Shown here: piece after piece, positions 50,322 to 56,536 of the stretch | Numbering within the stretch: the stretch's first letter is position 1 | Layout of the letters: the number at the start of each line of letters is the position of its first letter | Assembly: GCA_947494145.1 (NCBI GenBank) | Contig: CANLTZ010000001.1 | Span: 372,001 to 436,000 of the forward strand | Length of the DNA stretch: 64,000 nucleotides | From: an uncultured Jannaschia sp. | Lineage (GTDB): Bacteria > Pseudomonadota > Alphaproteobacteria > Rhodobacterales > Rhodobacteraceae | Direction of reading: 5' to 3' | Notes under the pieces: generated by a model | Seen by the model: only the letters and a program-made list of their open reading frames with translations | Told to the model about the DNA's origin: nothing | Databases searched by the model: none | Translations under genes and position numbers: made by a program

Positions 50322-51890
50322 CTAAGCCGTTACTGCATCCCAATCCAAGTCGAATTTCTGAAGGTATTTCCGCAGCCTATCCCCATCATTCTGGGTCGTC
50401 CGCTTTTCGCGAGAGACGGCAAATAGGGCACGGCCCGCCGCGCTGAGATTGGCAGCGTTGCGGCAGGCGCGAATGACGGCGGCCAATTGGACCATGTCGA
50501 ACGGGTCGATCTCCGCGGCCGCGGGGCCAAGGACGTCTCGCAGAAGCTGGAAGTCGGCGTCGCCGCGCGCGGTCTTCCAATCCGCCTGCAATGTCGCGAT
50601 TTCATCTTCGACCATGAAGCTGGTGATCCGCCCCCTTGGCGCCAGGGTGCAAAGCCTGCGGACCGTGCCACTGAAGTCGCGGAAATTGCCGGGCCAAAGC
50701 GTTGCGGGGTTGGCGGCAAAGCGCAGAAAACTGTCGCGCGCTGCCGCGTTGAAACCGACCTGGGTGCCCAATTGCCGTTCGGCCCGGGCTAGTTCGAAGA
50801 CCAGATTGACCTCCACATCCTCGCGTCGTTCGCGCAAGGGGGGCAGGCGAAAACGCCACATGTTGAGACGCGCCAGCAGGTCGGGGCGGAATGCGCCCTG
50901 GGCCGCCAGAACCCGAAGGTCACGATTGGCACCCGCGATGATCTGGAACCGGCTGGTCACTTCGTGGTCGGAGCCAAGGGGGTAAAAACGCCCCGTCTCG
51001 ATGGCGTGCAGCAGGACGGATTGCGCGTTGAGGCCCAACTCATCCACCTCATCCAGGAAAAGCACGCCGCCATCGGCTTCGCGCAGCAGCCCGCTGCGTT
51101 CCGTACCCGCCTGGCCCAGATAGGACCGGCGCTGCCCAAACAGTGCGCCCAGCGCGTCGGGCCCGTTGAGCGTGGCGCAATTGACATGGACCATGCGGCC
51201 CTTCACGCGGCGGCGTTCCAGTTTGAGGTTGTAGATCCGTTCGGCCAGTTCGGTCTTGCCCGTGCCCGTCTCGCCCAGCAGCAAAATCGGTTCGTCCGAA
51301 TTGCTGGCGACCAGTTCGATCCGGTCGATCAGGGCGTTATAGGCGGGGTTCTTCGTCTCGATCCCGCCTTTCAGTTGGTCGCTATATTCGCGCGAAAGCT
51401 GGTCGAAGCGTTGTTGCAGCGCGTTGTAGCGGCTCAGGTCCAGGTCGATGACATCAAACTTCGGCGGGCCTTCGTCGCGCCCCGGCGGCCCCGTCTGGAT
51501 CAGGCGGGCGGGGACATGGCGGCTTTCGGTCAGCAGAAACCAGCAGATCTGGGCGACATGCGTGCCGGTTGTCAGATGCACGTGATAACGTTCGCGGTCT
51601 TCGTCGAAGCCGTAGCTGCGGGCGAAGTCGTAGAGCTTGCCATAGACTTCCTGGAAATCCCACGGGTCGTCCAGGTCCAGCACTTGCAGCAGGACCTCGG
51701 TTTCGGGTGCCGCCGTCTCTACTTCGGCTTTCACATGCTTGGCCAGGCGGCCGAACTTCTGATCGTGAAGGATTTCCAGTCGGTCGATCTTGAAATGATC
51801 GTGCATCGTCAGGCTGACGGTCGGCCGCCAGCGCCGCCGCTTGCCCGCATCAAGCTGCGTGCCAAGGAAACCGATCACGACGTTCTTCAT
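50322..51890 (-). CDS. rtcR: RtcR, transcriptional regulator of the RNA-repair operon (variant without GAFTGA)
   Basis: 522 residues. The N-terminal ~180 residues form a CARF-like ligand domain (HLTTGTHVAQICWFLL), then an AAA+ activator domain with Walker A GETGTGKT (206-213) and Walker B VLFLDE (276-281), and a C-terminal HTH (DRLRKYLQKFDLDWDAV). In E. coli RtcR the segment after LFG contains GAFTGA, the sigma-54 contact; here the aligned residues 256-261 read SYLGQA. Other AAA+ parts (GGVLFLDEVDELGL, arginine region RDLR) are retained. Divergent from rsr, whose operon it should activate after RNA damage. Confidence 0.93.
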   Translation of the reverse strand: MKNVVIGFLGTQLDAGKRRRWRPTVSLTMHDHFKIDRLEILHDQKFGRLAKHVKAEVETAAPETEVLLQVLDLDDPWDFQEVYGKLYDFARSYGFDEDRERYHVHLTTGTHVAQICWFLLTESRHVPARLIQTGPPGRDEGPPKFDVIDLDLSRYNALQQRFDQLSREYSDQLKGGIETKNPAYNALIDRIELVASNSDEPILLLGETGTGKTELAERIYNLKLERRRVKGRMVHVNCATLNGPDALGALFGQRRSYLGQAGTERSGLLREADGGVLFLDEVDELGLNAQSVLLHAIETGRFYPLGSDHEVTSRFQIIAGANRDLRVLAAQGAFRPDLLARLNMWRFRLPPLRERREDVEVNLVFELARAERQLGTQVGFNAAARDSFLRFAANPATLWPGNFRDFSGTVRRLCTLAPRGRITSFMVEDEIATLQADWKTARGDADFQLLRDVLGPAAAEIDPFDMVQLAAVIRACRNAANLSAAGRALFAVSREKRTTQNDGDRLRKYLQKFDLDWDAVTA

Positions 51891-51921
51891 CTGCTATCCA
51901 AATATATATTTTGCGATCAAA

Positions 51922-51977
51922 ATGTATCGTATCTACATAGACCTTTCTTCTCAAGACGTGATATTGTATTTTATAAT
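51922..51977. promoter_or_regulatory. Divergent rtcR / rsr promoter region
   Basis: This AT-rich 172-bp gap (51891-52062) contains a minus-strand promoter for rtcR: -35 TTGAGA (51949-51954) and -10 TACGAT (51926-51931) with a 17-bp spacer. On the plus strand a perfect -10 TATAAT lies at 51972-51977 with no recognisable -35, as expected for an activator-dependent promoter. An ATGTA/TACAT inverted repeat (51922-51938) overlaps the rtcR -10. I found no GG-N10-GC sigma-54 element. Confidence 0.55.
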
Positions 51978-52062: not shown

Positions 52063-53619
52063 ATGGCGAACAAGTCTGTGTTTGCATCGAGGAAGGGCCG
52101 GTTGCTGCCGAAAGCGACAGCGACGAACGCCCACGGGGCGCCGGCCTACGCCTATTCCGATGCCCATGCCCTGGCTCAGGTCGCCGTGACCGGCACCTTT
52201 GGCGGCATGTTCTACCAATCCCCGGCGGAGGAGCTGGAATACATCCTCGATGTGGCCGAAGCCGTGGACCCGCGCTATCTGGCGCAGGCTGCGATTTATG
52301 CCCGCAAGGCAGGCCATATGAAGGACATGCCCGCCGTGTTGCTGGCGATCCTGGCGCGCCGCGATCCGGTTCTGTTCCGCGCTGCTTTTGGGCGCGTGGT
52401 CGATAACGGCAAGATGCTGCGCACCTTCGTGCAGGTCATCCGTTCCGGTCAGACGGGCCGCAAATCCTTGGGCTCCGCGCCCAAGGCGATGGTTCAGAAT
52501 TGGCTTAACAGCGCGTCCGACCGGGCGATGCTGCAGGCCAATATCGGCAACGATCCGTCCTTGGCGGACGTGATCCGAATGGTGCACCCGAAGCCGGTTT
52601 CGGCCGAGCGGGAGGCGCTGTTCGCCTGGATCGTCGGGCGTCCCTGTGACGTGGCCCTTCTGCCGAAGGCGGTTCAGGACTGGATCGCGTTCAAGGCGAC
52701 CCGCAAGGGTCAGGTGCCGGATGTGCCGTTCCAGATGCTCATGCAGCTGGATCTGACCCAGAAGCAATGGGCGCGTATCGCGCGCAAAGGCTCCTGGCAG
52801 ATGGTGCGGCAGAGCTTGAACACGTTCCACCGTCACGGCGTCTTTGGCGTGGCCAAGAATGTGGACCATGTGGCGGCCCTGCTGCGAGACCCGGAGGCCA
52901 TCGCGAAGGCGCGGGCGTTTCCGTACCAGCTGATGGTGGCAGCGCAGAACGTCACGCCGGACATGCCGCGGGCCATCGTGGACGCGCTGCACGATGCGAT
53001 GGAAATCGCCGTGCAGAACGTGCCGCAGGTCCCAGGCCAAGTCGTGGTATGCCCGGACGTGTCGGGTTCCATGACGTGGCCGGTGACCGGGTATCGCGTC
53101 GGCGCCACCTCGGTCGTGCGCCATGTGGATGTGGCGGCCCTTGTGGCGGCTGCGTTCCAGCGGGTGAATCGCGGGTGCCAGGTGCTGCCGTTCGACTTCA
53201 AGGTGCGCGATGTGCGCCTGGAGCCGCGCGACACCATCCTGACCAACGCGGAGCGTCTGGCCCGTATGGCCGGGGGCGGGACGAATTGTTCCGCACCGCT
53301 CAAGTGGCTCAACGACCGTGGGCGTAGCCCCGATCTGGTGGTGTTCGTGTCCGACAACCAGTCCTGGGTGGATGCCCGCGCTGGCGGTCAGGGGACGGCG
53401 ATGATGTCCGAGTGGGAAGCGATCAAGCGTCGCAACCCGAAGGCCAAACTGGTCTGCATCGACATCGCGCCCTACGGCACGACCCAGGCGCAGACCCGCG
53501 CCGACGTGTTGAATGTCGGCGGGTTCTCGGATGCGGTCTTTGAGCAGATCGCGGCCTTCGCCGAAGGTCGAACCGGTCCAGAACACTGGGTGGGTGAGAT
53601 CGAGAAGATCGACGTTTGA
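52063..53619 (+). CDS. rsr: Rsr, TROVE-domain Ro60-like RNA-binding protein
   Basis: 518 residues. An N-terminal HEAT-like TROVE ring (residues about 20-320; TFGGMFYQSPAEE at 44-57) and a C-terminal von Willebrand A domain with the MIDAS motif DVSGS at 332-336. Ro60 proteins bind Y RNAs on the outside of the ring and thread misfolded RNA ends through it. First gene of the operon; the Y-like RNA array begins 54 bp after its stop, followed by kptA and rtcB. Confidence 0.95.
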   Translation: MANKSVFASRKGRLLPKATATNAHGAPAYAYSDAHALAQVAVTGTFGGMFYQSPAEELEYILDVAEAVDPRYLAQAAIYARKAGHMKDMPAVLLAILARRDPVLFRAAFGRVVDNGKMLRTFVQVIRSGQTGRKSLGSAPKAMVQNWLNSASDRAMLQANIGNDPSLADVIRMVHPKPVSAEREALFAWIVGRPCDVALLPKAVQDWIAFKATRKGQVPDVPFQMLMQLDLTQKQWARIARKGSWQMVRQSLNTFHRHGVFGVAKNVDHVAALLRDPEAIAKARAFPYQLMVAAQNVTPDMPRAIVDALHDAMEIAVQNVPQVPGQVVVCPDVSGSMTWPVTGYRVGATSVVRHVDVAALVAAAFQRVNRGCQVLPFDFKVRDVRLEPRDTILTNAERLARMAGGGTNCSAPLKWLNDRGRSPDLVVFVSDNQSWVDARAGGQGTAMMSEWEAIKRRNPKAKLVCIDIAPYGTTQAQTRADVLNVGGFSDAVFEQIAAFAEGRTGPEHWVGEIEKIDV

Positions 53620-53673: not shown

Positions 53674-53801
53674 TCCGGCGAATGCCGGCGAAACTACAGG
53701 TAGAGCGCTGACCAAGGCGGTCAGAGGTTGCGGGTTCGAACCCCGTCGCGCGAAAGCGTCGAAGCTCATGAAGACAGTGTTTCGCCATGCTTGTCGTCGG
53801 A
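53674..53801 (+). ncRNA. Y-like RNA unit 1 with D-loop-permuted tRNA module
   Basis: Basal stem TCCGGCGA/TCGTCGGA (ends), internal loop AUGCC / AUG-CUUG, second stem GGCGAAAC (53687-53694)/GTTTCGCC (53779-53786), then TACA. The apical part reads as a tRNA in permuted order: D-stem 3' strand GAGC (53703), anticodon arm CTGAC-CAAGGCG-GTCAG, 5-base variable loop, T arm GCGGG-TTCGAAC-CCCGT, a closed acceptor-like hairpin CGCGC-GAAA-GCGTCG, then D-stem 5' strand GCTC (53764-53767). Spacing from D stem to acceptor is canonical. Position 33 is A, not U, so it is unlikely to decode. Confidence 0.8.
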
Positions 53802-53812
53802 CCCAAAATCAC

Positions 53813-53877
53813 GGGCGGAATGCCTGCGGGACTACAGCTTGAACCTGTCAGACGTCTCGCACACCCCTTGTCCGCCC
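53813..53877 (+). ncRNA. Y-like RNA unit 2, short form
   Basis: 65 nt. Basal stem GGGCGGA/TCCGCCC, internal loop AUGCC / CACCC-CUUG, second stem TGCGGGAC/GTCTCGCA (one G-U), then TACA and a small hairpin ACAG-CTTGAAC-CTGT. No tRNA module; comparable to a minimal Y RNA. It starts 11 nt after unit 1. Confidence 0.75.
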
Positions 53878-53897
53878 ACTCGAATGGAAAGGAAGAT

Positions 53898-54037
53898 ATC
53901 TCGGCGAATGCCGGTGGAACTACAGATCGTTAATCTCCGGGTCGCGGGTTCGAGCCCCGCCATGGCCGCCAATTCCATGGCCATGTAGCTCAGTTGGTAG
54001 AGCAGGTAACGTTTCACCCAACCCTTGTCGCCGGGAT
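53898..54037 (+). ncRNA. Y-like RNA unit 3 with anticodon-loop-permuted tRNA-Asn module
   Basis: Basal stem ATCTCGGCGA/TCGCCGGGAT (10 bp), loop AUGCC / CAACC-CUUG, second stem GGTGGAAC/GTTTCACC, then TACA. Between them the tRNA 3' half comes first: GTTAA (53929), TCTCC, variable GGGTC, T arm GCGGG-TTCGAGC-CCCGC, acceptor CATGGCC, discriminator G and encoded CCA (53969-53971). After a 7-nt linker the 5' half follows: acceptor GGCCATG (53979-53985, perfect complement), TA, D arm GCTC-AGTTGGTA-GAGC. GTT, A37, G73 and the variable loop fit tRNA-Asn. The original anticodon stem pairs only at 3 of 5 positions. Confidence 0.82.
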
Positions 54038-54039
54038 GC

Positions 54040-54114
54040 GCGCCCGTAGCTCAGAGGTAGAGCAGCCGCCTCTTAAGCGGCGTGTCGTGGGTTCGATCCC
54101 CACCGGGCACACCA
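54040..54114 (+). tRNA. tRNA-Lys(CUU), nearly intact, with encoded CCA
   Basis: 75 nt. Acceptor GCGCCCG/CGGGCAC (6 of 7 pairs; C2-A71 mismatch), D arm GCTC-AGAGGTA-GAGC, anticodon arm GCCGC-CTCTTAA-GCGGC with anticodon CTT at 54072-54074, variable loop GTGTC, T arm GTGGG-TTCGATC-CCCAC, discriminator A and CCA (54112-54114). It begins 2 nt after Y-like unit 3 and ends 9 nt before unit 4, so it should be excised from the operon transcript. Whether it is charged, or serves as a spare or decoy, cannot be told. Confidence 0.85.
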
Positions 54115-54123
54115 GACATATCC

Positions 54124-54197
54124 GGGGGAATGCCCGTGGGAGTACATCGCAGTGGTACGATCCCCCTTGTTGGGCCTCTCATGATTTCTTGTCCCCC
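54124..54197 (+). ncRNA. Y-like RNA unit 4, short form
   Basis: 74 nt. Basal stem GGGGGA/TCCCCC, loop AUGCC / AUUU-CUUG, second stem CGTGGGAG/CTCTCATG (two G-U pairs), TACA, then hairpins ATCG-CAGTGGTA-CGAT and CCC/GGG. The third base of the 5' element is G where units 1, 3 and 5 have C, and the 3' strand changes to match. Confidence 0.72.
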
Positions 54198-54228
54198 TGA
54201 CCTGAACTGAACGTAAACGAAGGAATAA

Positions 54229-54380
54229 CCCTGGCGAATGCCGAAGGAACTACAATGCACCTTTACCGGGAATAACCGAGCGGGTTCGACTCCCCTCCTT
54301 GCAGGCGCCCAGACGGCAAACGCATTTGCGTTCGCAGATGCGGGGCGGGCCCGGATGTTTCTTCTCCCTTGTCGCCAGGG
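54229..54380 (+). ncRNA. Y-like RNA unit 5, long form with degenerate tRNA-like part
   Basis: 152 nt. Perfect 9-bp basal stem CCCTGGCGA/TCGCCAGGG, loop AUGCC / UCC-CUUG, second stem GAAGGAAC/GTTTCTTC, TACA. The interior has a T-arm-like hairpin (GAG-C-GGG TTCGACT CCC-CTC, bulged C; 54278-54297) preceded by AATAACC, and a GCAAA/TTTGC hairpin. Its tRNA order is not resolved. A T-rich run (TTTAATTTTT) follows at 54382-54391. Confidence 0.72.
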
Positions 54381-54432
54381 CTTTAATTTTTGATGGCCGC
54401 TCGGATGGGCGGCCAAGGTAAAGGACAGAAAA

Positions 54433-54574
54433 GCGCCGGGAATGCCACGGGATTACAAATAGCCGCATCTTCGAAGAAGGGGGCTTGGGCCAAACCCTAG
54501 GCCCTGCTGGTTCAAACCCAGCCCGGGGGAACCCGGTGGCGGAAAAACATCCTGTGAACGCATTTATCCCCCAG
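54433..54574 (+). ncRNA. Y-like RNA unit 6, divergent, with T arm and GNRA-closed acceptor hairpin
   Basis: The 5' side has the conserved GGAATGCC and second stem CACGGGAT (54446-54453) pairs with ATCCTGTG (54549-54556). The basal stem is weak (GGGA/TCCC), and CUUG is missing on the 3' side. The interior holds a possible long variable arm GGGCC/GGCCC, a perfect T arm GCTGG-TTCAAAC-CCAGC (54506-54522), directly followed by CCGGG-GGAA-CCCGG (54523-54536), the same T-arm-then-closed-hairpin order as unit 1. Ends 11 nt before kptA. Confidence 0.6.
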
Positions 54575-54585
54575 AGTTTCAGACC

Positions 54586-55131
54586 ATGGATCAAGTGAAG
54601 CAAAGCAAGTTTTTAAGCCTGGTGCTTCGGCATCGCCCAGAAACCATCGGCCTGTCGCTGGGCAAGGGGGGCTGGGTTCCGGTGTCGGAGCTTTTGTCCG
54701 CGCTTGAGTGCCATGGCCGAGGGATGGAAGCCGAAGACCTGTTCGAGATCGTCCGCCTATCGGACAAAAAGCGTTTCACCCTATCGGCGGACCGCAATCT
54801 TATTCGCGCGGCGCAAGGCCATTCGGTTGAGGTCGAGCTGGATTTGCCGGAAGCCGAGCCACCGGAAAGCCTGTTTCACGGCACGGCTGAAAAGAACCTG
54901 GCTTCCATATTCAAGTCGGGGCTGCTTCCGGGCCGGCGGCAGCAGGTTCATCTGTCCTCGGATCGTGAAACGGCCCGCCATGTCGGGCGGCGCCATGGCA
55001 CGCCACGTATTCTGGCCGTCCAATCGGGGCGGATGTGGGGGCAGGGCATCAAGTTTTTTCAAGCCGATAATGGCGTCTGGCTTGTCGAAACAGTTCCAGC
55101 CGAATTTCTGAGTGAAGTAAAAGATGACTGA
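54586..55131 (+). CDS. kptA: RNA 2'-phosphotransferase (Tpt1/KptA)
   Basis: 181 residues. Transfers an RNA 2'-phosphate to NAD+, giving ADP-ribose 1'',2''-cyclic phosphate. Catalytic residues of the family are visible: R15-H16 (LVLRHRPE), R74 (NLIRAAQGHS) and the C-terminal half NAD site (LFHGT; VHLSSD). In a RtcB operon it could clean 2'-phosphates left by other ends or ligases. It overlaps rtcB by 8 bp. Confidence 0.95.
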   Translation: MDQVKQSKFLSLVLRHRPETIGLSLGKGGWVPVSELLSALECHGRGMEAEDLFEIVRLSDKKRFTLSADRNLIRAAQGHSVEVELDLPEAEPPESLFHGTAEKNLASIFKSGLLPGRRQQVHLSSDRETARHVGRRHGTPRILAVQSGRMWGQGIKFFQADNGVWLVETVPAEFLSEVKDD

Positions 55132-56536
55132 CACAAGCACCGACTATCCCGTCACCGGCGACCACCTCAAGGAATGGGGTCATCGCCCGGGCAAGCAATT
55201 CCCCGCCCTTCTGGCGCGGGCCAATGAGATGCGCGCCGAAGGCTTTGGTTTGGTGCGCATCCGCCAGGAGCTGGAGGGCGAGATTCCCCCCGTGCCGGTC
55301 ACGTTGGATCTGCGCGCGCCCGGCGCCGTGCCGTTTCATGAAAATATTGACGCAGCCCATCCCGACGAAGAAGACAACATCGTCAAGGTGCGCGAAACCA
55401 TGACCGCGCTCATGCGCACGCCCACGATCGAGGCGGGGGCCATCATGCCCGATGCCTGCCCAGCGGGGCCCGTGGGCACCATCCCCGTGGGCGGCGTGGC
55501 CGCGGCGCGCAATGCCATCCATCCCGGGATGCATTCGGCGGATATCTGTTGCTCGGTCATGATGACCGATCTGGGCGATGCCGACCCCAAGGCCGTGCTG
55601 GATGCTGCGCAATCTGTCACCCATTTTGGCCCCGGCGGACGGCCCCAGGGCAAGCGCTTCACCATGTCGCTGGATTTGCTGGACGCGTTTCGGGCGAACC
55701 CGTTTCTCGACAACCCCAAGTCGCTGCGCATGGCGCAGGAGCATATGGGCACCCAGGGCGACGGGAACCATTTTCTGTTCGTGGGCCGCTCGCGCAAGAC
55801 GGGTCGCACTGCGATGGTCACACACCATGGCTCCCGCGGGCCGGGGGCGGTGCTTTATAAGCACGGGATGGCCGTGGCGGAGAGGTTTCGCCGCGAAGTG
55901 TCGCCGCAAACGCCCAAGCAGAACGCCTGGATTCCCGCCGATAGCGAAGAAGGGCAAGCCTACTGGGAGGCGCTGCAATTGATCCGCAAGTGGACGAAGG
56001 CCAATCACAACGCACTCCACCAGGCGACACTGGAAGCCGCATGCGTGGGCCAGACGGGTGAGCGTTTCTGGAATGAGCATAACTTCGTCTTCAAGCGCGG
56101 CGACCTCTACTATCACGGCAAGGGCGCCACACCGGCCTGGGCGGATTATGCTTCGGACGCGTCGGGGCTGACACTCATCCCGCTCAACATGTCCGAGCCG
56201 GTGCTGGTGGTGCGCGGCAAGGACGCCAAGCATGGGCTGGGCTTCAGCCCCCATGGGGCAGGGCGCAACTTCTCCCGCTCGGAACACAAGCGGCGCATGG
56301 GGTCGGTGACGCCCGCGCAGATGCTGGCCGCCGAGACCGAAGGGTTGGATATCCGGTTCCATGCCGGTGGCGTCGATGCGTCCGAGCTGCCGTCGAGCTA
56401 CAAGAGCGCCGACAACGTGGTGGCCCAGATCAAATACTACGATCTGGCCGAGATCGAGGATTACATCGACCCCTATGGCTGCATCATGGCGGGCGACGTG
56501 CCGCCGTTTTGGTTGAAAAAGAAAAAGCGGAGGTGA
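55124..56536 (+). CDS. rtcB: RNA-splicing/repair ligase RtcB
   Basis: 470 residues. Joins 2',3'-cyclic-phosphate or 3'-phosphate RNA ends to 5'-OH ends with GTP and Mn2+. Metal ligands: ADICCS (140-144, with Cys143 likely), GDGNHF (His216), THHGSRG (233-239). The guanylylated histidine is H377 in SPHGAGR. Together with Rsr, Y-like RNAs and KptA this forms a tRNA/RNA repair unit. RtcA cyclase is absent from the window. Confidence 0.96.
   Translation: MTDTSTDYPVTGDHLKEWGHRPGKQFPALLARANEMRAEGFGLVRIRQELEGEIPPVPVTLDLRAPGAVPFHENIDAAHPDEEDNIVKVRETMTALMRTPTIEAGAIMPDACPAGPVGTIPVGGVAAARNAIHPGMHSADICCSVMMTDLGDADPKAVLDAAQSVTHFGPGGRPQGKRFTMSLDLLDAFRANPFLDNPKSLRMAQEHMGTQGDGNHFLFVGRSRKTGRTAMVTHHGSRGPGAVLYKHGMAVAERFRREVSPQTPKQNAWIPADSEEGQAYWEALQLIRKWTKANHNALHQATLEAACVGQTGERFWNEHNFVFKRGDLYYHGKGATPAWADYASDASGLTLIPLNMSEPVLVVRGKDAKHGLGFSPHGAGRNFSRSEHKRRMGSVTPAQMLAAETEGLDIRFHAGGVDASELPSSYKSADNVVAQIKYYDLAEIEDYIDPYGCIMAGDVPPFWLKKKKRR

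Follow-up and report, generated by a model that had tools for sequence, protein, structure and literature searches.

The DNA between rsr and kptA-rtcB in the window, the 64,000-nucleotide stretch analysed here (G000:C1:372001-436000, from a genome of 4.9 Mb), carries five units that are nearly certainly Y RNA genes, a sixth that is probably a decayed Y RNA, and a tRNA-Lys(CUU) gene embedded among them. We read this DNA as the noncoding part of an RtcR-controlled RNA-repair operon, which would supply, upon damage, a kit made up of tRNA mimics that bind Rsr and of replacement tRNAs; the replacement step is one that we infer. We consider this reading about as likely as not.

The gene order is that of an RtcR-regulated RNA-repair operon, with rtcR divergent and with rsr and rtcB in one shared direction. 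The rtcR gene (50322-51890, minus strand) encodes a CARF-type activator [Pfam RtcR, 245.7 bits, together with Sigma54_activat], and rsr, the gene for the 518-residue bacterial Ro60 (52063-53619, plus strand), is identified by vWA_Ro60 (58.9 bits) and TROVE (24.4 bits). Downstream of the array follow kptA for RNA 2'-phosphotransferase (54586-55131, plus strand; PTS_2-RNA, 153.4 bits) and the RNA ligase gene rtcB (55124-56536, plus strand; RtcB, 123.2 bits). No rtcA was found among the neighbouring genes scanned. According to the part of its description that was available (PMC9879122), the Salmonella RtcR regulon likewise has a divergent rtcR followed by rsr, Y RNAs, and rtcB; it differs from the present operon, which has kptA before rtcB and an extra tRNA, an RtcR that lacks the GAFTGA motif, and a genome in which no sigma-54 gene was found. 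Two other readings of the stretch were rejected. One was a coding gene across the array, where the open reading frames are mechanical; the other was a plasmid trait, as 55 plasmid records match, none over more than 80% of the query, and 15 listed plasmid rows cover the stretch of unit 3 only (13-14% of the query).

The initial annotation described six tandem Y-RNA-like genes in this interval. All six GAATGC..TACA cores are present, starting at 53680, 53818, 53906, 54128, 54236, and 54440; the start-to-start spacing is 88-222, not the 74-200 that had been given. The six proposed 8-nt pairings were recovered, each with 8/8 pairs when G-U is allowed, and CTTGTC, the CUUG strand, is found in units 1-5 and is absent from unit 6. 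Y genes throughout the stretch can therefore be upheld for units 1-5 and not for unit 6, which is without the CUUG strand, and the description of the stretch as Y genes only had overlooked a true tRNA-Lys(CUU) gene at 54040-54114. In the whole genome, the pattern GAATGCN{8,10}TACA has seven matches, six of them in the array, and the reversed pattern has nine. Chance repeats were rejected on the basis of this genome-wide count, the search for pairing partners, and helix pairing compared with shuffles (see below).

A two-helix Ro-binding stem with a UG bulge and a CUUG strand, which we take to be a Y RNA stem feature and which is also present in the Rfam consensus, occurs in units 1-5 and not in unit 6. 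Against the Rfam YrlA model (RF02553), unit 3 scores 79.5 bits over 53901-54037 (cut-off 69) and unit 1 scores 26.5 bits, below the cut-off; units 2, 4, 5, and 6 give no YrlA match at E up to 1. Single-sequence folding backs the units weakly, with z-scores for units 1-6 of -0.77, -2.13, -1.52, -0.27, -1.56, and -3.53. None of 200 shuffles is as stable as the fold of unit 6, and the minimum-energy fold of unit 1 is without the Ro stem. The Y RNA identity claimed for the array is supported by the Rfam match, by homologous arrays in relatives, and by covariation of the two Ro-binding stems.

The relatives were compared in a set of 82 loci. Besides the window and L025, it comprises 80 Rsr loci from GTDB genomes, the best among 365; this set holds near-duplicates (e.g., L037/L040 and L065/L073), and close relatives are over-represented in it. 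It contains 308 units after rsr, between rsr and rtcB, and three elsewhere on the rsr strand. At least one unit adjoins rsr in 80/82 loci, and nine loci carry six or more, so the expectation of one or two units per operon fails for this lineage, where 1-7 units are seen in those 80 loci. The kptA gene follows rsr in only 11/82. Among 394 evenly drawn genomes of the family, 24 have rsr, and in 23 of these the 1.5-kb flank holds between two and seven units. In a sample of 398 genomes from the phylum, 15 have Rsr matches; all ten full-length ones are accompanied by 3-7 units, eight of these ten genomes lie outside the family, and the five weak matches have no units. An array of six units is ordinary in this lineage.

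Conserved pairing across relatives, on which the initial annotation had staked its proposal, is evident as strong covariation in both Ro-binding stems. In 122 distinct units that have TTGTC and a core of 19 nt, the outer helix, 6 bp long, is 99.2% paired, compared with a mean of 74.4% and a maximum of 78.1% for shuffled partners (1000 shuffles, which ignore kinship among units). The inner helix is 98.6% paired, compared with 76.5% for shuffled partners; the outer helix was placed by motif and not by pairing, and the partner of the inner helix was picked by pairing. Several pair types occur at four of the six outer and at most inner positions, and the fifth inner pair is G-U in 101/122 units. 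Across the 82 loci, a stem partner matching at 7-8 of 8 positions precedes the next unit in 303/308 cases. When [CT]TTGT is also demanded within 12 nt of the partner, 259/308 units comply, compared with 274/1540 trials with shuffled stem letters and 616/1540 when the stem was taken from another unit chosen at random, the stems being similar from unit to unit.

The inserts carried by these stems are of several types. A T-arm is present in 209/308 inserts, and it precedes the D-arm in all 94 inserts where both arms are recognised; among the 99 inserts shorter than 60 nt, 84 have no T-arm. A pattern scan assigns 71 inserts in 53 loci to the YrlA type, which is opened at the anticodon, and 23 inserts in 21 loci to a type opened at the D-loop. 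The latter starts with the 3' half of the D-loop, a short capped hairpin replacing the anticodon arm, and a variable loop or Leu-type arm, and it continues with the T-arm, an acceptor stem whose end is closed off in a small loop, and the 5' half of the D-arm. Twenty of the 23 units were folded as alignments (L073, L080, and L093 were omitted; the L080 insert extends into the next unit). For the generic kind (nine of 11 members), RNAalifold recovers the D-stem, T-arm, acceptor, and Ro helices unaided, together with the anticodon hairpin, and at 14 of 33 pairs one or more sequences carry changes on both sides. For the Leu-type kind (11 of 12 members), it recovers the same D-stem, T-arm, acceptor, and Ro helices and the variable arm; both sides are changed at 21 of 31 pairs, and the anticodon hairpin was not recovered in these members. 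The Rfam YrlA model at its cut-off takes 9/37 units in eight loci and misses the D-loop-opened mimics in the loci scanned.

In the window, where all units lie on the plus strand, unit 1 (53675-53800) is one of the 23 and of the generic kind: its effector (53699-53778) has the parts of a cloverleaf in a circular permutation opened at the D-loop, in the order GGTAGAGC, hairpin, T-arm, acceptor, AAGCTCA. Unit 3 (53901-54033) is of the YrlA type, permuted at the anticodon, with T-arm, acceptor, and D-arm. Units 2 (53813-53877) and 4 (54123-54197; CGTGGGAG class) are short, with inserts of 17 and 29 nt, and unit 5 (54231-54378; GAAGGAAC class) represents a further class, with a 102-nt insert containing a T-arm and a conserved CGCCC/GGGCG hairpin. 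Unit 6 (54436-54574) keeps the inner stem, has a weak outer helix in addition to the loss of the CUUG strand, and is probably a decayed Y RNA. Its insert is cloverleaf-like, with a T-arm, an acceptor-like hairpin, and GGCGGAA retained; it folds Leu-like without the usual 5' half and falls outside the 23. The closest described relative is YrlA of the Salmonella rsr-yrlBA-rtcBA operon, which shares the Ro-type stem, the position after rsr in an RtcR operon, and, with unit 3, the permuted T-arm/acceptor/D-arm insert; the available portion of PMC11472068 already reports circular permutation relative to tRNA. Unlike in that system, six units with several insert types are present here, a second permutation is found at the D-loop, and true tRNA genes lie between the units.

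The tRNA-Lys(CUU) gene (54040-54114, plus strand; CCA encoded) is called by ARAGORN, scores 64.3 bits against the Rfam tRNA model (cut-off 29), and starts 6 nt past the outer helix of unit 3. The genome has 46 tRNA places, read as 44 distinct tRNAs, among which there is no second Lys(CUU); a single housekeeping Lys(UUU) lies elsewhere. In the 82 loci, ARAGORN makes 66 calls after rsr and before rtcB and 12 elsewhere, an "Asn" call inside rsr of L085 being counted as outside. Two of the 66 (L109 and L112) are miscalled Y units and were dropped. The 64 array tRNAs that are left lie in 43 of the loci, with none in the other 39, and comprise 23 Asn(GUU), 15 Gln(UUG), 13 Lys (10 UUU and three CUU), 12 Pro (nine UGG and three CGG), and one unclear case. 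The 76 intervals bounded by rtcB (77.9 kb) hold 61 of them, where about 0.9 would be expected from the 12 calls in the remaining 1081 kb, and five Markov resamples of these intervals gave no tRNA call. In the even family sample, 16/24 rsr loci, that of the window's own genome included, have an array tRNA; ARAGORN found none within 1.5 kb in eight loci outside the family. Since array tRNAs are absent from these eight loci and from 39/82 of the comparative set, the system does not depend on a supply of tRNA. In L035 (9320-9690), what looks like a small open frame lies between an array tRNA-Asn and the next Y unit.

Most array tRNAs keep the cloverleaf, the anticodon stem, and the T-loop over many genera, which suggests that they are under selection. 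CCA is encoded in 62/64 by a loose check, U33 is retained in 61/64, and an anticodon stem of 4-5 pairs is present in 63/64, that of the unclassed tRNA being broken. The Asn cloverleaf shows compensatory change at 7/21 pairs (13 of the 23 Asn aligned), and a C2.A71 acceptor-stem mismatch is kept in all ten aligned Lys, of 13. U33 and the discriminator base matter for decoding and charging. Three of 12 Pro copies have lost U33 (L056 8854 and L063 8874, both CGG, and L079 9095) and look unable to decode; they are perhaps decayed or unused in decoding. The discriminator is A in 4/15 Gln and T in 2/13 Lys, and from such features some array copies look decayed.

Four clusters at 80% identity contain 60/64 array tRNAs; outside them stand the unclear case and a single tRNA each for Asn, Lys, and Pro. 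The clusters mostly reflect vertical descent, and the narrow choice of isotypes therefore rests on few independent events. Three of the four extra tRNA bodies fall within the same isotype set (P about 0.01-0.03 if independent), which we take as modest support for that choice. One member of the Gln cluster (L095 9213) bears an Asn anticodon. Full-length BLAST (80-100%) finds housekeeping Lys, Asn, and Pro in 15/15 genomes and Gln in 16/17, and the array tRNAs diverge from these where compared, for Gln by BLAST only. Housekeeping Asn are 96-100% identical across 15 genomes, and the same query matches array Asn at 78-84% over the aligned part. A phage origin of the array tRNA-Lys was considered and rejected; 427 phage records match it, none above 90%, and the matches listed are of several tRNA kinds.

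The control of the operon appears to depart from that of the known regulon. In RtcR, the GAFTGA loop, through which the protein contacts sigma-54, is replaced by SYLGQA in the motif QRRSYLGQAGTE; GAFTGA is present in 6/82 RtcR proteins, this one not among them, with the position unreadable in 3 of 82. A sigma-54 gene (PF04552) was not found in the window's own genome, which is 98% complete; such a gene is present in 7/23 of the rsr genomes searched, among them G367, where RtcR carries GAFTGA. Candidates for a -24/-12 promoter are equally frequent upstream of rsr and in shuffled sequence (23/82 each), and no sigma-54 promoter was found there. With GAFTGA absent and a sigma-54 gene not found, the RtcR of this operon probably acts together with a different sigma factor. 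In the rtcR-rsr gap (51890-51940), a TATC...ATA...TATCGTAT-like element is partly conserved in relatives and is perhaps a candidate RtcR binding site.

How, then, are the tRNA genes within the array to be understood? They might be processing marks only, at which RNase P and the tRNA 3' nucleases free the Y RNAs. The spacing fits this idea, since 42/62 measured array tRNAs begin 4-14 nt past the outer helix of a Y unit, and neighbours within 60 nt recur, with Lys after a GGTGGAAC unit nine times and Asn after a GAAGGAAC unit 11 times; the U33 loss in 3/12 Pro would also be harmless to a processing mark. However, a mark of this kind would not call for 63/64 to be Lys, Asn, Gln, or Pro, with three of the four extra bodies likewise, nor is it easily reconciled with 64 tRNAs for 308 units and 39/82 loci without any, and we regard this explanation as unlikely. 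Rather less likely still is that the Y RNAs serve solely as adaptors that tether Rsr to PNPase, as in RYPER, so that the array provides dosage and variety and the tRNAs are neutral passengers, or remnants of the tRNA genes that gave rise to the permuted inserts. The available parts of PMC8394870 and PMC9879122 report that Rsr and YrlA bind PNPase, and the invariable position of the T-arm before the D-arm in two-arm units is what the junction of tandem tRNA genes would give. Neutral passengers or remnants would not be expected to preserve their cloverleaf, anticodon stem, and T-loop across many genera, as most array tRNAs do, and the 84/99 short inserts without a T-arm have no such PNPase-binding part.

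Competition offers a further alternative, in which tRNA-like Y RNAs and spare tRNAs act as decoys for tRNA-cutting nucleases and replacement is secondary. Most tRNA-cutting nucleases of this sort cut in the anticodon loop, and the Y RNAs are without a true anticodon loop, which makes this improbable as the main role. The idea was raised for YrlA by Hughes et al. (PMC7790460, available part), and it draws some strength from the generic D-loop-opened units, which keep the cloverleaf with the anticodon arm reduced to a short capped hairpin.

In the kit that we favour, RtcR would sense RNA ends from tRNA cleavage, by analogy with Salmonella, where tRNA fragments activate the operon (PMC7790460, in the part available). 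It would then turn on one transcript with rsr, the six Y RNAs, tRNA-Lys(CUU), kptA, and rtcB, which nucleases would split into separate RNAs; RNase P cleavage at the tRNA 5' end would also release unit 3 at its 3' end. The intact Y RNAs are each predicted to bind Rsr via the two-helix stem with the UUG bulge. The inserts, two or three of them tRNA mimics of different topology and two short, could provide alternative partners for Rsr or decoys for tRNA-binding enzymes. The extra tRNA-Lys (in relatives Asn, Gln, or Pro) would top up cleaved tRNAs, with RtcB mending the rest. A partial precedent is the Anabaena trn operon under TrcR, for which the accessible text of PMC10272220 describes an inducible set of spare tRNA genes, silent by default, under a regulator common with rtcB. 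Unlike the present operon, it comprises 26 tRNAs on a megaplasmid and is controlled by a repressor, TrcR, and the term Y RNA is absent from the text available. In E. coli attacked by Cas13a, overproduction of the cut tRNAs did not rescue growth, according to the part of PMC11042736 that was available.

It is also conceivable that the spare tRNAs escape the nucleases. The available text of PMC12409363 states that AriB of PARIS cleaves three tRNAs, Lys(UUU), Thr(UGU), and Asn(GUU), between positions 40 and 41 and that the tRNA-Lys of T5 owes its resistance to altered bases at 39 and 41. These two positions are among those at which array Lys departs from the housekeeping copy. Divergent extra tRNA-Lys(UUU) and Asn(GUU) are a further likeness to the phage tRNAs that evade anticodon nucleases, such as those of T5 against PARIS (PMC12409363 and PMC11555353, parts available). 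Unlike those phage tRNAs, the array tRNAs belong to a bacterial operon, array Asn is unchanged from its housekeeping counterpart at 39-41, and Thr, a main AriB target, is absent from the 64. The Gln anticodon arm is nearly unchanged relative to housekeeping Gln, and position 37 is A in 12/12 array Pro and G in the housekeeping Pro among those listed. Since the differences are spread over the whole tRNA, evasion stays a lead suggested by sequence comparison. PrrC/RloC-type proteins (PF13166) are not enriched, with 5/22 rsr-bearing genomes (22 of the 24 were used) compared with 6/22 genomes without rsr, and none in the window's own genome.

Some phages combine similar parts. In IMG/VR, 43 viral contigs encode a distant Rsr, and 21 of these have a Y pattern match; both helices accompany 28/58 matches, compared with 127/1160 with shuffled stems, the viral counts being inflated by apparent duplicate contigs (L257-L259 and L262/L263). 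Y units supported by pairing occur among tRNA clusters in L257-L259 (L257 9591-11174) and L272 (6950-11498), and by core pattern only they lie among many tRNAs in L260, L271, and L291; a tmRNA is called amid Y-like cores at L285 8203, also on an Rsr-bearing viral contig. These contigs resemble the present operon in having Y units near rsr, several of them mixed with tRNAs, and differ from it in an Rsr that is 38-51% identical and in their many tRNA kinds. According to the available part of PMC7824862, TROVE proteins and tRNAs are found in some jumbo phages. The link between Rsr, Y RNA, and tRNA supply perhaps extends beyond this lineage.

As far as the open literature shows, the embedded tRNAs, the D-loop-opened mimics, and an RtcR without sigma-54 are new. 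Among the open-literature matches listed, from a search that missed the main bacterial Y RNA papers, there was no report of multi-Y arrays, of D-loop-opened inserts, or of tRNAs in such operons. The D-loop-opened tRNA mimics broaden the known Y RNA shapes, and an RtcR that works without sigma-54 would mean that the mode of control has shifted inside a single regulator family. Y RNAs occur here together with spare tRNAs of only a few kinds, which points to the loss of tRNAs as the damage that the operon answers, and names Lys, Asn, Gln, and Pro as candidates. A bolder version, which we hold tentatively and consider somewhat doubtful, is that damage-inducible Lys, Asn, Gln, and Pro tRNAs in Rhodobacterales have re-made bodies that escape nucleases, including a Lys anticodon re-made here from UUU to CUU, and are made together with Rsr-bound mimics of at least two circular permutations. 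If true, it would make the operon a bacterial counterpart of the phage tRNA arrays that survive anticodon nucleases.
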